From positions 496,001 to 560,000 of the forward strand of contig NZ_CP159307.1 of NCBI RefSeq assembly GCF_040448695.1: a stretch of 64,000 nucleotides of DNA, written 5' to 3'. The notes below the pieces were generated by a model, which saw only the letters and a list, made by a program, of their open reading frames with translations, ran no database searches and had not been told where the DNA came from. This document shows, piece after piece, positions 855-57,412 of the stretch (position 1 is the stretch's first letter; the number at the start of each line of letters is the position of its first letter). The position numbers and the translations under genes were made by a program. Source of the stretch: Dehalogenimonas sp. 4OHTPN (GTDB taxonomy: Bacteria; Chloroflexota; Dehalococcoidia; Dehalococcoidales; Dehalococcoidaceae).

Positions 855-2339
855 ATGTTTCATACAACGCTAAGCCGCAGAGATTTCATGAAAGCCTTGG
901 GGGTATCCGGGGCAGGCATAGGTGTCAGTTCGTTAACCCCGGTCTTTCGAGATTTAGACGAGGTAATGGCCGCTCCTTCCGCAAATCTTAATAGACCTTG
1001 GTGGGTAAAAGAACGAGAAATTGGTAATCCAACGGTCGAGGTTGATTGGTCATTAATCAATCGTCATGATAACACCAAGGCACTCGTGGGCGGAGGATTT
1101 GGACCGATTGTTGGCGCTGAATTGCAGGCAAAGTTGAAGGCTGAGAGCAACGCATTGCAGTTATCCGATGTGAAAAATAATACGCCCGGGGCAACCCACA
1201 AGGATTGGGCTTTGTACTCTGCATGTGGTTCCTTTGTTGAACAATCAGTGATGAACTATGTTCAGGCAACAGCAAACTGGCAGCCTGGTACTGCCCCCCA
1301 AGTTTTCACCTGGACCACACCACCTACCCCAGATTACTTCGGGACTACCCAGTTCAAAGGAACGCCCGAAGAAAATTCCCGAATGCTCAGGGCTGCCATG
1401 CGTTTTATGGGAGCTTCACAGGTAATGTTTGGGGAGCTTGCTGACCACGAGAAAAAGTTGATATTCACCAAGCACAACCGCACGAAAAAAGAAATCGTCT
1501 TTGAAAACGTTGAAAAGGGATACGAGACAGACAAGAAACACGTTGTGCCTGATAAACCTCTTTGGATCGTGTCAGTAGCAATACAGATGTCTAAAGAGCT
1601 TTTCCGCCAAGGCAGAAGCCCCCTCCGCACAGCAGCTAATGGAAGCCGGTATTACCAATGGAAAGGTGTTCAGGCTAGAACGCAGGCATTTTTGAATGTC
1701 CTGGGTTACCAGGGGATAGGATATCCAGAGTTTAGTACTGGAGTGATGCCATCCCAGGCCGATGCCATTCTTTGTGGTTTTTCGGAAGGCGCGAGAAACA
1801 ACAATGTAACGATCAGTCCGGAGTTTGGCACAGTTGTCGGATACTTCAGTCTCTTAACAGATCTACCACTCGCTCCTAACAACCCGATCGACGCTGGTTA
1901 TTTTAGGTTCTGCCATACTTGCCGAAAATGCGCTAATGAATGCCCCACTCAAGCGATTTCTCATGAATCTGAACCGAGTTGGGATATTCCTAAGTCTTCT
2001 TTGGCGCCCGACAAAGCCCCTACCTGGTCAGTCCCAGGGAAGAAAGTATTCCATACCGACTTGCCTTTGTGTTTTACCCAATTCGGCCAGCACCCAGGTT
2101 GCGGTACGTGCATGGGGACATGTACCCACAATGTAAATGGTACCGCGGGCATTCACGAGATCGTCAAAGCGACATTATCGACCACTCCAGTTTTCAATGA
2201 GTTCTTGTGGCGCGCTGACGACACTTTTGGGTACGGTGTTATACCAGTGGAAGACAGAGAAAAATGGTGGGATTATGAGTTCCCGACCTACGGGTATAGT
2301 ACCACTCTAATGTCTCACCATGGCGGCTACAACAAATAA
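855..2339 (+). CDS. rdhA: Reductive dehalogenase catalytic subunit (rdhA-1)
   Basis: A 494-residue RdhA, the corrinoid and FeS enzyme that removes halogens from organohalides as terminal electron acceptors on the outer face of the membrane. The ATG at 855 is chosen because AAAAGGAG lies just upstream; an in-frame TTG at 834 would overlap that site. Residues 7-12 (SRRDFM) begin a twin-arginine signal, followed by a hydrophobic Gly/Ala-rich segment. The first FeS motif, CHTCRKCANECP, starts near residue 353. The second starts near residue 406 as Cys, nine residues, then CGTCMGTC. The motif PWWVKERE near residue 50 is typical of the family. No rdhB anchor gene follows; a strong hairpin lies 12 bases after the stop. 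Confidence 0.95.
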   Translation: MFHTTLSRRDFMKALGVSGAGIGVSSLTPVFRDLDEVMAAPSANLNRPWWVKEREIGNPTVEVDWSLINRHDNTKALVGGGFGPIVGAELQAKLKAESNALQLSDVKNNTPGATHKDWALYSACGSFVEQSVMNYVQATANWQPGTAPQVFTWTTPPTPDYFGTTQFKGTPEENSRMLRAAMRFMGASQVMFGELADHEKKLIFTKHNRTKKEIVFENVEKGYETDKKHVVPDKPLWIVSVAIQMSKELFRQGRSPLRTAANGSRYYQWKGVQARTQAFLNVLGYQGIGYPEFSTGVMPSQADAILCGFSEGARNNNVTISPEFGTVVGYFSLLTDLPLAPNNPIDAGYFRFCHTCRKCANECPTQAISHESEPSWDIPKSSLAPDKAPTWSVPGKKVFHTDLPLCFTQFGQHPGCGTCMGTCTHNVNGTAGIHEIVKATLSTTPVFNEFLWRADDTFGYGVIPVEDREKWWDYEFPTYGYSTTLMSHHGGYNK

Positions 2340-46168: not shown

Positions 46169-47266
46169 TTATTCGGCTGGGGTCGGTGATACCGGAGCCG
46201 GCGGTTCTTTTCCCTGAGCTTCAAGGTATGGCTTTATCCGTTCGATGGCCGGGAAACCTGACAATACCACGGTCACATCGATCAGTCCCTTTTCGATCGG
46301 GTAATCACCGTATCTGATTGAGGCTCCGGGGGCGATGCTCTTCAGATACTCGCCGAGGAATTTGATTAGATCTGTGCCGATCTCTTTTTCCGGCGCTGAA
46401 ACCAGGTATAAAGCCTTGGTGGCGGTCTTGGTGTCGCATTGGACGGATAGTTCACTGATAGCCTCGTCCATGGCTTTGCGGCCGCTCATATTCTCGTCGC
46501 CCTCTTTATCCCAGGGCATCGTGATCAGGGGGATCAGGGTTTTGCCATAGCCGATGGCTGTCCATCCCGAGAGCATCTGCAGGATGTCGCTGGCGGCCAG
46601 CATGCCGACGCCGATGTGGCTGCGCTTCTTCTCTTCGCCGGCGCAAAGCAGGCTGTAGAACGGCCCGGCGATGGCCTTGTTGATCTCGGCGATATTGGCG
46701 CTCCAGGACATACCCTTTTTAACATACCGCTGATTCTCAATCAGGAAAACGGCGTCCATATTGACTTTGGCGCTGCGCAGGCAGTGGGTGGTGTTTTCCA
46801 CATTGATTTTTTCCAGCGCTTCCTCATGCTCGAAAGGCAGGACGCAGATGCCGAAAACCGCCTGATCGCGGTAGCGTTCCTTGAGTATCTCGGCGATGAC
46901 CGGCATGCAGCCCGCCGCGGTGCCGCCGGCCGTGCCGCCCAGCAGCAGGAAGGCGTCGGATTCGGCAAATTGCTTTGACTGGCGGATGGCGTCGATGACC
47001 TTGAAACCCTCTTCCCGGGCAATTTGGGCGGCCAGGGCAGCCTGTTTACCGACACCGCGGCCTTTGGTCTTGTTTTCGCCGATTACCAGCCGGTGTTTAG
47101 CTTTGATCGATGCCAGGCCGCGGAGTGACGAGGCATCGGTATCCACCGCGAAAGCCCCGGTCAGGATATCGACTTTGCGGAAACTGCGGGCTCTTTCGTG
47201 AAGACGGACGAATTCGTCGGCCAGCCGCCCGCCGCACTGTCCCAGGCCGATTACCATCAGTTTCAT
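46169..47266 (-). CDS. Tubulin/FtsZ-superfamily GTPase (CetZ-like)
   Basis: 365 residues from ATG 47266 with GGAGG seven bases upstream. VIGLGQCGGRLADEFVR is the first nucleotide loop; LLGGTAGGTAAGCMPVIAEIL is the tubulin signature loop in altered form (GGTAGGTAAG rather than GGGTGTG). PFEHEEALEKINVENT and NIAEINKAIAG follow. It differs from ordinary FtsZ: it has a long divergent C-terminal half, and lacks the conserved FtsZ tail. The nearest described relatives by layout are archaeal CetZ-type proteins. Its job could be cell shape or membrane organisation. Confidence 0.72.
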   Translation of the reverse strand: MKLMVIGLGQCGGRLADEFVRLHERARSFRKVDILTGAFAVDTDASSLRGLASIKAKHRLVIGENKTKGRGVGKQAALAAQIAREEGFKVIDAIRQSKQFAESDAFLLLGGTAGGTAAGCMPVIAEILKERYRDQAVFGICVLPFEHEEALEKINVENTTHCLRSAKVNMDAVFLIENQRYVKKGMSWSANIAEINKAIAGPFYSLLCAGEEKKRSHIGVGMLAASDILQMLSGWTAIGYGKTLIPLITMPWDKEGDENMSGRKAMDEAISELSVQCDTKTATKALYLVSAPEKEIGTDLIKFLGEYLKSIAPGASIRYGDYPIEKGLIDVTVVLSGFPAIERIKPYLEAQGKEPPAPVSPTPAE

Positions 47267-47604
47267 GGTGTTCCTCCTCGATTTTATTCCGGCTGTTGGT
47301 GGAAATGGGAAGCCGATTCCAGAGGGAGCCGCGGGTTTCCACTCTTTTGATTCTAACCCCCGATCCGCAGAATAGCAATAGATAGATGACATAATAATTA
47401 TATTCAATCAGTGTTGCGCATGTTTTAAGCCGTTCGCGTCAGGTTGTATTTGACATCTCGGGGCGACAAACCTATTATTTATTACCGTTCGTAACGATAA
47501 ATGCCAGGTCTGCAAGATATATTTCCACCAGCGGCGTTTCTCATTTATTCCAGGGCCGGCTTGCGACCTTTCGGCGTGCATTTAGATAAGACAGAGGAGT
47601 GCTG
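47267..47604. other. Divergent intergenic region
   Basis: About 340 bases between the tubulin-like gene and the methyltransferase operon, holding the + promoter at 47450-47478 and a small palindrome CGTT-CGT-AACG at 47486-47496. No gene. Confidence 0.7.
47450..47478 (+). promoter_or_regulatory. Promoter of the cyclase/UbiA operon
   Basis: TTGACA (47450-47455), 17 bases, TATTAT (47473-47478), 127 bases before the first start codon. The palindrome CGTTCGTAACG just after it overlaps the expected start site and could be an operator. Confidence 0.8.
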
Positions 47605-48372
47605 ATGGAGACTGTGGCGCCGGTAAAGGACCCGGGGTTCGATTCCGAAGAAGCTAAAAAACGTAAGAAGTACATGGTGGACCTGTTCGTGGTCCAGGCT
47701 AAGAATTATGATTTCCACGATGATGTCTACGGCCTGTATGCCCACCGGTTGTGGGTACGCACCATGGTCAAGATTATCGAAAAGTTCCTGAAGGGCAGGA
47801 AGCGCGCCGACATGCTGGATATGGGCTGCGGTACCGGCTTCGTCACCTTCAACGTCGCCCGCAAGCTGCCCAAGGTGGAAAGTATCGAGTCCTTCGACCT
47901 GTCCCCGGATATGATCGCCGTGGCCAAAGAGCGCTATGAGAAGGGTTTTAAAGGCCGCAAGATTAAGTTTTGGGTGGCCGACGCGGAAGTCCCCTTCGGT
48001 AAAAGCAAGTACGACATCGTCACCACCTCCTTCGCCTACCGCAATTTCGCCAACAAGCACCTGGCCACCCAGAACGTCTTCAATTCTCTTAAGCCGGGCG
48101 GCATCTTTGTTATCCAGGACCTGACCAAGCCCGAGAAGCACCCCATGAAGGGGCTGTACGCCTTCTATATGAAGTTCATCCTGCCGGTCATCGCCAGGAT
48201 CCTGGGCACCGAGAAATCGGCCGCCGGCTGGCTTAAAAAGAGTACCGACATGATGCCGACCAACGCTCAAATCCAGAAAATCCTGGAAGACAACGGCTTC
48301 ACAAGCTGTTACTACAAGAGCCTTTCAGGCGGCATCGCCTGCATCATCGTCGGCTTCAAGCCGGGAGGTTAG
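47605..48372 (+). CDS. UbiE-like methyltransferase A
   Basis: 255 residues from ATG 47605 with AGAGGAG upstream. SAM motif MLDMGCGTGFVTFNVA near residue 72, then SFDLSPDMIAVAKERY, FAYRNFANK and LKPGGIFVIQDLTKPEKHP. FRNF-type and TKPE segments are UbiE/MenG hallmarks, so C-methylation of a prenylated ring is the family default. It is a close paralogue of the next gene, two bases on; both begin with the same DPGFDSE..AKKRK block. First gene of the operon that includes a cyclase and a prenyltransferase. Confidence 0.85.
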   Translation: METVAPVKDPGFDSEEAKKRKKYMVDLFVVQAKNYDFHDDVYGLYAHRLWVRTMVKIIEKFLKGRKRADMLDMGCGTGFVTFNVARKLPKVESIESFDLSPDMIAVAKERYEKGFKGRKIKFWVADAEVPFGKSKYDIVTTSFAYRNFANKHLATQNVFNSLKPGGIFVIQDLTKPEKHPMKGLYAFYMKFILPVIARILGTEKSAAGWLKKSTDMMPTNAQIQKILEDNGFTSCYYKSLSGGIACIIVGFKPGG

Positions 48373-48374
48373 GG

Positions 48375-49142
48375 ATGGCGGCGGAAACAGCCGAGAGACA
48401 CCTGCAGGACCCCGGATTTGATTCCGAGGCTGCCAAAAAACGAAAGGCTTACATGCTGGAGCTTTTCGGCTACCAGGCGCCGAAATATGACCTGCACGAC
48501 GACATCATCGGCCTGGGCATCCACCGCCGCTGGGTCAAGGATGTCCTTAAAATCATCGGCCACTATAAAAAAGACAAATCCAACCTGAGGATGCTGGATC
48601 TGGCCTGCGGCACCGGCTTCGTTACCTTTAACACCGCCCGCCATTTTACTGACATTGACATCGACGCCTTCGACCTGGTGCCGGAGATGGTTGAGGTGGC
48701 TAAAAAGCGCTACGATAAAAGTTTCCAGGGCCGCCCGATTAAGTTCTGGGTTGGAGATTCCGAGGTGCCCTACGGCGAAAACAAGTACGATATCATCACC
48801 ACCTGTTTCGCCTTCCGCAACTTCCTCAACAAAAACCTAGCGGCGCAGAATGTCTTCAAGGCGCTCAAACCAGGCGGTGTCTTCATTATTCAGGATATGA
48901 CCAAGCCGGAGAAGCAACCGCTGCGGGCGCTGTACCTCTTTGCCCTGAAATATCTGCTGCCCGTCGCCGGGACCATCCTGGGCACCGCCAAGGGCTCGCC
49001 GCGCTACCTATACAACTCGGTTATGCTGCTGCCCAAGAATACCGATATCGCCAAAATCCTTACCGACAACGGTTTTAAAGACGTCTGGCACCGCTACCAG
49101 AGCGGCGGTATGGGCACGGTCGTCGTAGGTTATAAAAAATGA
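48375..49142 (+). CDS. UbiE-like methyltransferase B
   Basis: 255 residues. Same plan as the preceding gene: MLDLACGTGFVTFNTA, AFDLVPEMVEVAKKRY, FAFRNFLNK, LKPGGVFIIQDMTKPEKQP. The two proteins are similar along the whole length, so they arose by tandem duplication and may methylate two positions of one compound or form a heteromer. Its stop overlaps the cyclase start (ATGA). Confidence 0.85.
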   Translation: MAAETAERHLQDPGFDSEAAKKRKAYMLELFGYQAPKYDLHDDIIGLGIHRRWVKDVLKIIGHYKKDKSNLRMLDLACGTGFVTFNTARHFTDIDIDAFDLVPEMVEVAKKRYDKSFQGRPIKFWVGDSEVPYGENKYDIITTCFAFRNFLNKNLAAQNVFKALKPGGVFIIQDMTKPEKQPLRALYLFALKYLLPVAGTILGTAKGSPRYLYNSVMLLPKNTDIAKILTDNGFKDVWHRYQSGGMGTVVVGYKK

Positions 49143-50245
49143 TGAATGAAACGGCATACATGAAAACCCTGCAATATGACATCGGCGGCGGCCGGTCGCG
49201 GCCGATATATATCGGCCGGGGCATCCTCGACCGTTTATCCGAGTGCGCCGCGCCGCTTAAAGCCGATAAATTTTTCATTATCACCGACGACACCGTCGCC
49301 AAAACCTACGCTGAACCGGTCACCGCCGAACTCCGCAAGGTCGCTGAGACCCATGTATTTGTCTTCCCCGCCGGCGAACAGTCCAAGACGCTGAATACCC
49401 TTGAACAGCTGGGTGCCAAGATTTTGGATGCCCGCGCCACCAAATCTTCGGTCATCGTCTGCCTCGGCGGCGGCGTCGTCGGCAACCTCGGCGGCTTGCT
49501 GGCTGCGTTACTTTTTCGCGGCATCCGCTTCTTTCACGTGCCGACGACCATGGTGGCCCAGATCGACTCGGCTATCGGCCAGAAGCAGGCGGTCAACTAT
49601 AAGCGCGGCAAGAACCTTTTCGGCCAGTATTATCCCCCGGAGTTCGTCTTTATCGACTTTGCGTTCCTGCGTAATCTGCCGGCCCGGCAGATCCGGGCCG
49701 GCCTGGCCGAATCGGTCAAACACGGGCTGTGTCAGGAAGAGAGTTTCTTCGAGTACATCCGTGAGCTGGCGCCGGAGTTTTCCTGGGATGACATCGAGTA
49801 CATTTCCACCCATACCATAGAATTAAAGCTGGAGCTGCTGCTTATTGACCCCTATGAGGGCAAGCTGGACCCGCAGCTTGAGTTAGGCCATACTATCGGC
49901 CATGCCGTCGAGATCCGTAAAAACGGCCAGCTGCTGCACGGCGAAGCTATCGCTATAGGTATGACTGTCGAAGCCAAAATTTCGGCCGCCCTGGGTTTCA
50001 TGGATCCGGGCCTGGCGGCCCGAATCGAAAATATTTTTCAGAAGATCGGCCTGCCGACGCGTATCCCCGCCGACATCTCCATCGATGAAATCCTGGAAAC
50101 GCTCACCTTCGACAACAAGCGGCGCACCGCCATCAACGATTTCTTCCTGCTGGCCAGGTTCTGTGAGTTCCACAAAGAGAACGGCAAGATCGCCTGCAAG
50201 GTGCCGGAAGCGGTGTTGAGGCAAGTCCTTGAGAGCGCTTACTAA
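49139..50245 (+). CDS. Sugar-phosphate cyclase, dehydroquinate-synthase superfamily (DOI-synthase-like)
   Basis: 368 residues. It has the NAD site LGGGVVGNLGGLLAALLFRG, RAGLAESVKHG and the metal ligands in LGHTIGHAVE and LLHGEAIAIGM. Two positions differ from true AroB: the loop DSSVGGKTAVN reads DSAIGQKQAVN, and the LNLGHT or LNFGHT asparagine is glutamate (LELGHT). In 2-deoxy-scyllo-inosose synthases a KQAVN loop and a glutamate at this place are known features, so a non-shikimate carbocycle is likely. The substrate is unproven. Translationally coupled to the methyltransferase before it and overlapping ubiA after it. Confidence 0.78.
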   Translation: MMNETAYMKTLQYDIGGGRSRPIYIGRGILDRLSECAAPLKADKFFIITDDTVAKTYAEPVTAELRKVAETHVFVFPAGEQSKTLNTLEQLGAKILDARATKSSVIVCLGGGVVGNLGGLLAALLFRGIRFFHVPTTMVAQIDSAIGQKQAVNYKRGKNLFGQYYPPEFVFIDFAFLRNLPARQIRAGLAESVKHGLCQEESFFEYIRELAPEFSWDDIEYISTHTIELKLELLLIDPYEGKLDPQLELGHTIGHAVEIRKNGQLLHGEAIAIGMTVEAKISAALGFMDPGLAARIENIFQKIGLPTRIPADISIDEILETLTFDNKRRTAINDFFLLARFCEFHKENGKIACKVPEAVLRQVLESAY

Positions 50246-51155
50246 TCCGGCTTCGGTGTCGGCAGGCGTCTGGCTGCAGGCAGCCCGCCTGAAGTTCCTG
50301 CCCCAGGGCGTCTTTCCGGTGATCATCGCCGGAGCGGCGGCCTACTCGGCCGGGTTGTTCATTCCGCTTCACTTCGCCATCGCCCTGCTGGCCGCTGCCG
50401 CGGTGCAGATCGGCCTGACCATGTTCAACGATACCCTCGATTTCCAGTACGGCACCGATCGGACAACCATCGGCGCCAAGAACCCTTTTTCGGGCGGTTC
50501 GGGCGCCCTGACTTCCGGCCTCGTCAAGCCGCGGCAGGCGATGGCTGTCATCGTCGGGCTGTATCTCTTCGCTCTGGCCTGCGGCATCGGGCTGGCTTTC
50601 GCTTCCGGCGTTGAGAGCCTGTACATCGCCGCGTTGGGGGCTTTTATCTCCATCGCCTACTCGGCCAAGCCTTTCCGCCTGGCTTACCGCGGTCTCGGGG
50701 AACTGGCAATGCTCATCGGGTATGGCCCGGTGTTAACCGCCTGGGCTTACTACATTCACGCCTCGACGGTCACCCTGGATATTGTCCTGGCCGGAATCAT
50801 CCCCGGGCTGTGCATGTGGACGATGATCCTGATCAACGAAATCCCGGACTACGCCGAGGATTTTGCCGCCGGCAAGAAGAACCTGACCTACAGGCTGGGT
50901 CCGGCAGGCTCGAAGAACCTATTTCAAGCCTCGCTGGCCGCGGTCTACCTCTACATCGCTGTTCTCATCGCCGCTGGAACACTGCCGAAGGCGGCGGTCC
51001 TGGCCTTCCTGGGGATACCACTGGCCATTGGAGCGGCGGTGACCGCCCACCGGGAGTATGCTGATCCCTTGAAGGTTGCCAAAGCTAACAAGTACATGGT
51101 ATTAATATACTCTCTCACCAATGCGGCCGTAGCCGCGGCATTCTTGACGGCATGA
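50229..51155 (+). CDS. UbiA-family membrane prenyltransferase
   Basis: 308 residues with about eight to nine membrane helices; TTG start overlapping the cyclase end. Both aspartate motifs are present: FNDTLDFQYGTD (NDxxDxxxD) and INEIPDYAEDFAAGKKN (DxxxD). The second motif and the GKKNLTYRLG segment are like MenA-type enzymes, which attach a prenyl chain to an aromatic ring. Dehalococcoidia are thought not to use quinones for respiration, so the acceptor could be the carbocycle made by the cyclase. It would use chains from the polyprenyl synthase at 23862. Confidence 0.88.
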   Translation: MRALTNPASVSAGVWLQAARLKFLPQGVFPVIIAGAAAYSAGLFIPLHFAIALLAAAAVQIGLTMFNDTLDFQYGTDRTTIGAKNPFSGGSGALTSGLVKPRQAMAVIVGLYLFALACGIGLAFASGVESLYIAALGAFISIAYSAKPFRLAYRGLGELAMLIGYGPVLTAWAYYIHASTVTLDIVLAGIIPGLCMWTMILINEIPDYAEDFAAGKKNLTYRLGPAGSKNLFQASLAAVYLYIAVLIAAGTLPKAAVLAFLGIPLAIGAAVTAHREYADPLKVAKANKYMVLIYSLTNAAVAAAFLTA

Positions 51156-51244
51156 GCCAGACGTTTTCAACGATGACCGCGCGCGGCGTTTTACAGTAGA
51201 AGATGGCGTTAAGACCGCCGGCCTCAAAATAGCAAGGATGGAAA

Positions 51245-51871
51245 ATGGTAGAACCGAAGTTTTTTGAGACGATCGCCCCGGCTTATGATTTCCTGACCCG
51301 GCTGTTCATGGGAGGCACTTATGAGAGCATGCGGAAGCGCATGCTGAATGAGGATACATCCCAGATGGACATTCTGGACCTGTGCTGCGGCACCGGCTAT
51401 ATCAGCAATTCCATCAACGCCAGGCGTATCGTCGGGCTCGACCAATCGGAAGCCATGCTGGCGCGCAACGCCAGGGTGAAGAGGGACAACAAGGAACTGA
51501 TCAAAGGCAACGCTTATCAGATCAATTTCAAAGAAGGCGAGTTTGACCGTATTTACAACTCCAGCGCTTCTCATGAGTTCAAACTGTTCTCTCGCCTACT
51601 GAAAAAAAGCTTTCATGCGCTTAAGCCCGGCGGCAAGATCATCATTTTCGACATTTACCAGCCCAAGAACAGGCTGCTGCGTCTATTCATGAACACTTTC
51701 GTGAAATACGTTGTTGAACGGGGCATCATGTTCGTCCATACCAAAGAAGAATGGGCGCGGATGGTCACTGAAGCCGGTTTTGAGATTGAAGAACTCGAAC
51801 CGGTGAGGGGCTTTTATATCTTCGTCAAAGCCCGGAAACCGGAGCAGGCGGGGTTGCCGGCTGCGGGTTAA
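51245..51871 (+). CDS. Class I methyltransferase C of the cyclase operon
   Basis: 208 residues. ILDLCCGTGYISNSI is the SAM loop, then GLDQSEAMLARN and LKPGGKIIIFDIYQPKNR. It is more distant from the two UbiE-like paralogues upstream and lacks their FRNF block. It follows ubiA by about 90 bases in the same direction and probably belongs to the same pathway. The TKEEWARMVTEAGFEI end is typical of small-molecule methylases. Confidence 0.82.
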   Translation: MVEPKFFETIAPAYDFLTRLFMGGTYESMRKRMLNEDTSQMDILDLCCGTGYISNSINARRIVGLDQSEAMLARNARVKRDNKELIKGNAYQINFKEGEFDRIYNSSASHEFKLFSRLLKKSFHALKPGGKIIIFDIYQPKNRLLRLFMNTFVKYVVERGIMFVHTKEEWARMVTEAGFEIEELEPVRGFYIFVKARKPEQAGLPAAG

Positions 51872-55849: not shown

Positions 55850-57412
55850 TTAGCCTTTGTTGTAGCCGCCGTGCCGGGAAGTGACGGCGGTGCTGTAACC
55901 GTGTGAAGGCAGGGACATTTCCCACCATTCCTCTTTTTCTTCGTCATTCTTGAGGCCTAAGCCGAAGACTTCGTGCATCTCGGCGAAGAAACTGTTGAAC
56001 AGCGGAGTCACCGCCGATGTGCTGCGGACCAGATCATGGATCATGGCGTCGTCCGCGGAGTTGAAGACGCAGGAGCCGAAGCAGCGCAGGCAGGCGTCAA
56101 TCGATTTGCGATAGCCGGCGCAGGAGATCATGTCGGTCCAGTAGGTCTTGCGGCCTAATTTGAAGTACTCGCTCTCGCCGGGGGTCGGTTTGTCCCAGCC
56201 GAGGCCGGGCAGCGGCGGATCCTTAGGCGTGATGGATGATGGGTATGGATCATAGGATATTTCGCGGCCGCCCTTGGGTTCAATGGAGTTGGACGGGCAG
56301 TATTTGGCGCAGGTGCCGCAGGAATGACAGAAGCGCCAGATGCCGGCGTCGATAGGTTTGGTTTCTTCCAGCGGCAGGTCGGTCAGGATGTGGAAGAAGC
56401 CGGTCCAGCTTCCGTGTTCCGGGTTGATGGCCATGATGGTGTGCCTGGAGTTCTCCGCCAGGCCGGAAAATACCGCGCCGGCTTCGGAAGGAATTCCGCG
56501 GTAAGGGTTATCCGCCAGACCCTGGTAACCCAGACCGCGGAGGAATTCCTGGGTATTGGGCCTGATGACGGTGGTCATGCGGTAGCGGCAGTTGTTGGCG
56601 GCGCCGAAAAGCTGAGAATGGGCGGTGCGGGCCAGTTCTTTGGGCATCGGGATGGTGAAGGTGACTTCCCACAGGTCCTTGTTGGGGATGTAGAAGGTCC
56701 CGGTAGCCGAATCCACGTAGCCGGTGGGGACATCCGCGAAAACCATCGGCTTGGTGACCGTCGTCGGCACGTTGAACTTCGGCGGGTAGTACGAATAAGA
56801 AATATTGTCGCCATGGGTGCCGACCAGTTTCTTGTGATGGTCATCCAGCTTAGAAATGCCGATATCCTGGGCGCCGTACAGCTTCATCGCCGCCCGCAGC
56901 ATCTTGGTATTCTCCTCCGGCGTGCCTTCCCACTTGGGTACGCCGAGCTGCTCCGGGGTCTTAGCCCGCTGCGGGCCGATAAAGGCGGGGGTGTTGGCGC
57001 CTCTGAAGGTGTCTTCCCATTTGCCGTAGGCCGAATTTTCGCGGTTGGCGCCGTTGGCCAGCGCGTAATCGCGCAGGCTGTAGCCCGGCTCGCCGGCCTT
57101 CATCCGGTCGGTGGCTGAAGGCATGGTCATGGCTTTCCATTCATCGAGGCCGTAGTACCTTGCCTGGATGATGTCGGACTGAGTGCTGTGGAAGCCGTGG
57201 TGGCGGGCCATCAGGTCCCAGTCAACGTCAACGGTGGGGTGATCCTTCTCCTTGACCCACCAGGAGCGCTTGGGAGTGCTGCCCTTGGCAGCGGCAACCT
57301 CGTCCAGGTCATGGAATCCGGGGGCTGCCATAGCCGCGGCGCCGACGCCCCCGGCCAGGCCTACATTTTTAAGAAATTCGCGGCGGGAGACCGTGCTGTG
57401 AAATACGGACAT
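55850..57412 (-). CDS. rdhA: Reductive dehalogenase catalytic subunit (rdhA-4)
   Basis: 520 residues from ATG 57412, with AAGGAG six bases upstream. Tat signal SRREFLKNVGLAGG. FeS motif one is CHSCGTCAKYCP near residue 363; motif two is a Cys, nine residues, then CLRCFGSC. The protein is longer than the other three and its gene is visibly richer in G+C, so it looks like a resident gene, while rdhA-1 to -3 may be later arrivals. No anchor gene follows before the terminator. A short leader frame of ten codons (57486-57454) with its own AAAGGAG precedes it. Confidence 0.95.
   Translation of the reverse strand: MSVFHSTVSRREFLKNVGLAGGVGAAAMAAPGFHDLDEVAAAKGSTPKRSWWVKEKDHPTVDVDWDLMARHHGFHSTQSDIIQARYYGLDEWKAMTMPSATDRMKAGEPGYSLRDYALANGANRENSAYGKWEDTFRGANTPAFIGPQRAKTPEQLGVPKWEGTPEENTKMLRAAMKLYGAQDIGISKLDDHHKKLVGTHGDNISYSYYPPKFNVPTTVTKPMVFADVPTGYVDSATGTFYIPNKDLWEVTFTIPMPKELARTAHSQLFGAANNCRYRMTTVIRPNTQEFLRGLGYQGLADNPYRGIPSEAGAVFSGLAENSRHTIMAINPEHGSWTGFFHILTDLPLEETKPIDAGIWRFCHSCGTCAKYCPSNSIEPKGGREISYDPYPSSITPKDPPLPGLGWDKPTPGESEYFKLGRKTYWTDMISCAGYRKSIDACLRCFGSCVFNSADDAMIHDLVRSTSAVTPLFNSFFAEMHEVFGLGLKNDEEKEEWWEMSLPSHGYSTAVTSRHGGYNKG

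Follow-up and report, generated by a model that had tools for sequence, protein, structure and literature searches.

A conserved Dehalogenimonas operon joining a DOIS-like cyclase to UbiA and UbiE-type enzymes: a candidate pathway for a prenylated ring lipid

The operon and its distribution

In the 64,000-nucleotide stretch of the Dehalogenimonas sp. 4OHTPN genome analysed here (NZ_CP159307.1, positions 496,001 to 560,000; hereafter the window), five genes on the forward strand encode two UbiE-type methyltransferases (MTA and MTB), a sugar-phosphate cyclase, a UbiA-superfamily prenyltransferase and a third methyltransferase (MTC) (Table 1). The genome that carries them is complete (1.75 Mb). 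MTA and MTB are separated by a 2-base gap, MTB and the cyclase overlap by 4 bases (ATGA), and the cyclase and UbiA overlap by 17 bases; UbiA and MTC lie 89 bases apart in the window and overlap by 1 base in a relative (L041). The open reading frame (ORF) coordinates bear out the tight packing with stop/start overlaps that had been described in a first-pass annotation of this DNA, with a small shift of the operon start, since the MTA frame opens with the GTG at 47599, or starts a few codons further in, rather than at 47605. The Pfam cut-offs of these families are all reached, and the NCBIfam scores lie just or far under the curated cut-offs.

Table 1. Genes of the operon and the promoter-like match upstream of it (window coordinates)
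Feature	Length (aa)	Coordinates	Strand	Basis and remarks
Methyltransferase A (MTA)	257	47599..48372	+	UbiE/COQ5 family; ORF list and Pfam/NCBIfam profiles
Methyltransferase B (MTB)	255	48375..49142	+	UbiE/COQ5 family; tandem paralogue of A
Sugar-phosphate cyclase	368	49139..50245	+	DHQ_synthase and DHQS_C domains; PF01761/PF24621
UbiA-superfamily prenyltransferase, MenA-like	308	50229..51155	+	PF01040, 89 bits
Methyltransferase C (MTC)	208	51245..51871	+	PF08241/PF01209; distant UbiE-like class I S-adenosylmethionine-dependent methyltransferase
Sigma-70-like promoter match, TTGACA-17-TATTAT		47450..47478	+	11/12 consensus bases; a consensus match, which says nothing of function

Of the 156 genomes of the order that were searched, 14 have the cyclase, namely all 11 included from the window's family (two genera) and three metagenome-assembled genomes (MAGs) of two other families. 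Its retention at 65-99% identity in 13 other genomes argues that the operon is not a chance arrangement. The order A-B-cyclase-UbiA is kept at 14/14 loci, and MTC follows at all 13 loci whose contig reaches it (at L046 the first 22 residues of MTC stand at the contig end, and in G035 the contig ends inside UbiA), so that the five-gene order holds wherever it can be checked. In a set of 294 genomes of the class, proteins of the A/B family (E<=1e-40) always occur as a pair and are confined to operon carriers. Three distant proteins are the sole further matches to the cyclase at E<=1e-70 among 400 genomes of the phylum, and no relative was found in the viral contigs scanned with it. Flanking genes common to G008/G009 and G022 point to vertical inheritance of the operon in part of the group.

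A cyclase of the DOIS clade

Exactly two proteins of the DHQ-synthase family are encoded in the genome. One of them carries the motifs GGKVAVN and NFGHT, is encoded directly next to a DAHP (3-deoxy-D-arabino-heptulosonate 7-phosphate) synthase gene, reaches 362.3 bits with the aroB model TIGR01357 (cut-off 305) and clusters in the tree with AroB proteins from its own order; the other is the operon cyclase. The genome therefore has a true AroB of its own, and the operon cyclase falls outside that family. Of the three findings that the first-pass annotation had named as refuting its reading (a cyclase inside true AroB, no other AroB in the genome, gene order not conserved), none was observed.

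Maximum-likelihood trees were built from 44 and from 41 proteins. In them the operon cyclases form their own supported clade within a joint clade with 2-deoxy-scyllo-inosose synthases (DOIS), which has support of 100/100 and 100/99, respectively, and they stand apart from AroB, EboD and the sedoheptulose-7-phosphate cyclases. The DOIS rows were BtrC (2d2x) and annotated Sodalis and Streptomyces DOIS; BtrC, 3zok (Actinidia chinensis dehydroquinate synthase, DHQS) and 3qbd entered as PDB-matched parts, shorter than full length. Removal of the long-branch rows (G068, a Leptospira AroB and a Nostoc DDGS-like protein), which yields the 41-row tree, gave the same result. In both trees the cyclase is a sister of the DOIS rows and is not nested among them; that it stands as a sister, and not as a proven DOIS, had been missed in the first-pass annotation.

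These data bear on the idea that the cyclase is a divergent second DHQS and that the operon makes a chorismate-derived quinone. Such a reading could draw on the fact that TIGR01357 is the best curated model for the cyclase (287.9 bits) and that DHQS structures are its best PDB matches in both sequence and fold. Nevertheless, 287.9 bits lies under the cut-off and under the score of the genome's own AroB, annotated DOIS likewise falls below it (262.6 bits), and approximately unbiased (AU) tests reject a grouping of the cyclase with Dehalococcoidia AroB (p 0.004) or with all AroB (p 0.033). On the strength of the score, the clade and the AU tests we rejected an AroB identity, and the substitution at the carboxylate site described below argues in the same direction; a second DHQS is, in our judgement, very improbable.

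The active-site residues are in line with this placement. The cyclase motifs read SAIGQKQAVN and PQLELGHTIGH and contain GQKQAVN and LELGHT just as first reported. Four traits are common to the cyclase and DOIS and are not those of AroB: GGG..GN, the KQ of KQAVN, a Glu at the DHQS Asn268 site and a C-terminal DNKR (14/14 orthologues). The alignment columns thereby confirm the earlier reading of the KQAVN loop and the Glu as DOIS-like traits. At the positions of DHQS Arg264 and Asn268 (A. nidulans numbering), all 14 orthologues have Asp244 and Glu248 instead of the AroB residues. Arg264 contacts the substrate carboxylate in the A. nidulans enzyme; with an Asp in place of this carboxylate-gripping Arg, the substrate is probably a sugar phosphate without the carboxylate of DAHP. 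The same site is Gly in BtrC and Glu or Asp in sedoheptulose cyclases, and the substrate may accordingly differ from that of BtrC: glucose 6-phosphate would be the first candidate, and the Asp leaves room for another. None of the 14 orthologues departs from the metal ligands E191, H251 and H267, from Arg127 on the phosphate side or from the catalytic Lys and Asn, and the cyclase is therefore expected to be active.

Compared with the DOIS of aminoglycoside pathways (BtrC, PDB 2d2x/2gru), then, the operon cyclase has in common a supported clade and the motifs listed above, and differs in forming a sister clade of about 30-40% identity, in the Asp at the Arg264 site, in the GQ that precedes KQAVN, in a His after the metal-loop Lys and in a context of prenyl and methyl transfer rather than aminocyclitol genes. 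An AlphaFold2 model (mean pLDDT 85) shows the DHQS/DOIS fold; its comparison with DHQS (Z 32-42) and DOIS (Z 35-37) structures does not separate the two and was used just to confirm the fold.

Because glycerol-1-phosphate dehydrogenase (G1PDH) shares the cyclase fold, archaeal-type ether lipid synthesis by G1PDH and UbiA was also considered. It was rejected, since the cyclase contains the two DHQS domains and scores no more than 51.8 bits against the G1PDH model, for which the cut-off is 413.

DOIS-like cyclases were also seen in other settings. In a Clostridia MAG (SKW257; L053, 5923-7062), one with KQGVN and LEYGHT directly follows a large gene resembling a nonribosomal peptide synthetase, possibly as a cyclitol-peptide cluster. 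Another, with KQALN and KQYGHT, lies in Chloroflexota G068 (L063, 1456-2622, minus strand), where the short stretch that was read has neither a UbiA nor a methyltransferase gene beside it. On a Streptomyces plasmid (L097, 5893-7053), a DOIS gene stands beside a major facilitator superfamily transporter, and none of its listed neighbours is a further aminoglycoside gene.

Prenyl and methyl transfer

The UbiA protein keeps both Asp-rich motifs intact in alignments (NDTLDFQYGTD and NEIPDYAED). It is the sole UbiA-superfamily protein of the window's genome and of each carrier, and therefore any UbiA-made prenyl-ring lipid in these organisms must come from this operon. All-trans polyprenyl diphosphate synthases, which could provide the prenyl tail, are encoded in 13 of the 14 carriers, the exception being a fragmented MAG. 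In G022 and three second-genus relatives, one such gene is found some 7 kb upstream of the operon. Additional copies were noted: a third PF00348 match at G000:C1:1120697-1121173 (minus strand) has an in-frame TGA and is probably a decayed copy, and weaker second or third PF00348 copies, free of stops, occur in G003, G004 and G007. Elsewhere in the class, the UbiA proteins nearest to this one are fusions of another kind and give no clue to the pathway; that at L131 (1357-2898, minus strand; 513 aa) is joined to an N-terminal flavin-nucleotide-binding-like domain (PNPOx-type, by eye), and open frames of similar length recur in many Dehalococcoidia.

All three methyltransferases pass the PF01209 cut-off, MTA with 149.9 and MTB with 125 bits. 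Against TIGR01934 (cut-off 158.35) they score 157.0 (MTA), 144.6 (MTB) and 72.1 bits (MTC, the last gene of the conserved order). The description of B as a tandem paralogue of A is borne out by 55% identity in the alignment. Both keep the RN motif that is typical of UbiE-type C-methyltransferases (SFAYRNF and CFAFRNF; invariant R148-N149 in MTA), and MTA would probably methylate a ring carbon of the prenylated product. Of the three methyltransferases first annotated, A and B are of the UbiE type and C is a more distant relative.

The UbiA and UbiE-type components recall the MenA and MenG/UbiE end of menaquinone synthesis, where the methyltransferase likewise acts on a prenylated ring. The operon differs from it in its cyclase, its two additional methyltransferases and its sub-threshold model scores, and the futalosine proteins MqnA/MqnD (PF02621) have no matches in 14/14 carriers; 4 of 61 relatives match. 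The resemblance raises the alternative of menaquinone salvage: UbiA and one UbiE-type methyltransferase would convert imported 1,4-dihydroxy-2-naphthoate to menaquinone, and the cyclase would serve an unrelated step. Consistent with salvage, UbiA matches best with MenA models and A and B with MenG/UbiE models, and menA with ubiE in the absence of a full pathway has been read in this way in other Chloroflexi (PMC5736913). Against it, every NCBIfam MenA and UbiE score is below its curated cut-off (for UbiA, at best 130.5 bits against 264, and 80.4 against 102.15 for TIGR00751), and no quinones have been found in Dehalococcoides (PMC10772276). Moreover, salvage leaves unexplained the second and third methyltransferases as well as a cyclase gene that is overlap-linked between the methyltransferase and UbiA genes in every carrier. 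We consequently regard it as quite unlikely.

The pairing of a cyclase with UbiA has a precedent that had been missed in the first-pass annotation, namely the ebo operon of cyanobacteria, Bacteroidetes and eustigmatophyte plastids, which encodes the UbiA-like EboC and the cyclase EboD (PMC5133447). It is the closest known kind of operon: a UbiA-superfamily enzyme and a sugar-phosphate cyclase other than AroB are encoded in one conserved operon, and the proposed ebo product is an isoprenoid-cyclitol (PMC5133447; ebo loci L109, L114 and L115). On this precedent the operon could make a prenylated cyclitol that is not aromatic and that acts in protection or export, with no redox function. However, the cyclase, the UbiA type and the partner genes all differ, and the operon is for that reason not ebo. 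EboD lies near the EEVS/DDGS clade, a supported clade distinct from that of the operon cyclase; EboC is 19-23% identical to the MenA-like UbiA and matches other models, and that UbiA gives no match to the EboC model NF035940 (342.5 bits for a true EboC); and three UbiE-type methyltransferases take the place of EboA, EboB, EboE and EboF, none of which turned up in a scan confined to the five genes and five neighbouring ORFs. UbiE-type C-methyltransferases suggest, in addition, an enolic or aromatic ring. A product of the ebo type seems unlikely to us. The actinomycete BE-40644 cluster offers a further parallel, since an EEVS-derived ring is farnesylated there by a member of the UbiA superfamily (PMC5133447); it differs in the use of EEVS with a C7 substrate and in yielding a secondary metabolite, as opposed to a lineage-wide operon.

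A candidate pathway and its possible role in organohalide respiration

Taken together, these findings lead us to consider it likely that the five genes form one pathway for a prenylated, methylated membrane compound with a six-membered, sugar-derived ring, in contrast to the chorismate-derived ring of known quinones. Gene content and order, family placement, active-site residues, distribution and the uniqueness of UbiA were observed; the substrate, the order of steps, the aromatisation and the product are proposed on that basis. The cyclase, using NAD and a metal ion, would cyclise a carboxylate-less sugar phosphate, most plausibly glucose 6-phosphate or a close relative, to a polyhydroxylated ketone ring, which would then be dehydrated or aromatised, either spontaneously or by enzymes encoded elsewhere. 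UbiA would add a polyprenyl chain from all-trans polyprenyl diphosphate, A and B would then methylate ring carbons, and C would place a third methyl on a carbon or an oxygen atom. The methylated, prenylated carbocycle or quinone-like compound envisaged in the first-pass annotation follows from the enzyme families, as a predicted product. A literature search on Dehalococcoides together with DOIS, UbiA/UbiE or prenyltransferase returned nothing on the operon.

As to function, the carriers belong to a lineage thought to respire without quinones, and the literature agrees with that view: Dehalococcoides and Dehalogenimonas are stated not to synthesise quinones (PMC5736913), and D. mccartyi is described as being without them, even though a quinone site is predicted in its OmeB subunit (PMC10772276). 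A 2026 survey counts Chloroflexota with the lineages for which no quinone pathway has been recognised, and suggests that some quinones are yet to be discovered (PMC13386864). Genomes of the window's family have 18-36 RdhA matches each, and at least 5 matches are present in 12/14 carriers against 0/47 non-carrier relatives, a count that ignores relatedness. Carriage of the operon coincides with RdhA-rich genomes, which is suggestive only. The window itself has reductive dehalogenase (PF13486) matches at 56369-57271 (minus strand) and 993-1871 (plus strand), among 36 in the genome. Complex I 49-kDa homologues (PF00346) occur in 11/11 family members and also in most relatives that have no operon, and they are therefore not a specific correlate of it.

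The most likely role of the product would be that of a lipid-soluble redox or proton carrier, or of a membrane protectant, in organohalide respirers without known quinone pathways. A carrier role taken alone is a tentative suggestion, to which we give somewhat less than an even chance. Tentative, too, is the proposal that the operon represents a new class of respiratory lipid carrier, with a ring made directly from a sugar phosphate by a DOIS-like cyclase and not from chorismate, which would serve the quinone-type sites of OmeB (NrfD-family) and of the 11-subunit complex I. Were the product such a carrier with a sugar-derived ring, the operon could be something categorically new.

Several points weigh against this interpretation. 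The usual acceptor of MenA-type UbiA enzymes is a carboxylated aromatic compound, which the cyclase would not directly supply, and no gene for an aromatising dehydratase is present in the operon, none having been sought outside it. Because the distribution amounts essentially to one family and three further genomes, shared ancestry may account for the correlation with dehalogenation. Furthermore, Dehalococcoides grows without added quinones, is insensitive to HQNO (2-heptyl-4-hydroxyquinoline N-oxide) and has no detected membrane quinones (reviewed in PMC10772276). The quinone tests in Dehalococcoides look, for their part, for known quinones.

The operon provides, in any case, a concrete candidate for a lipid pathway in organisms that have been described as free of quinones. 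Should the product be a carrier, the model of energy conservation would change for bacteria used in the bioremediation of chlorinated solvents; even if it is not, the operon would constitute a lineage-wide pathway for a prenyl-ring lipid whose ring is probably sugar-derived.

Some features of the neighbourhood may be added. In G022 and three second-genus relatives, an IspE-like gene is found immediately downstream of the operon. KsgA-, IspE- and rubrerythrin-like genes stand 3' of it at L041/L042 (10.3-12.8 kb) and L044 (G022; 13.5-15.9 kb), and at all these loci ThiL/TsaE/TsaB/Ndk-like genes are found on its 5' side, all named by eye. In the window, a gene on the minus strand (46169-47407) encodes a protein of the tubulin/FtsZ family whose C-terminal domain is that of CetZ (PF21011, 52.3 bits) and whose best PDB matches are 4b46/4b45. 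CetZ proteins are best known from archaea, and among the loci compared a CetZ-type gene adjoins the operon only in the window and in G007.

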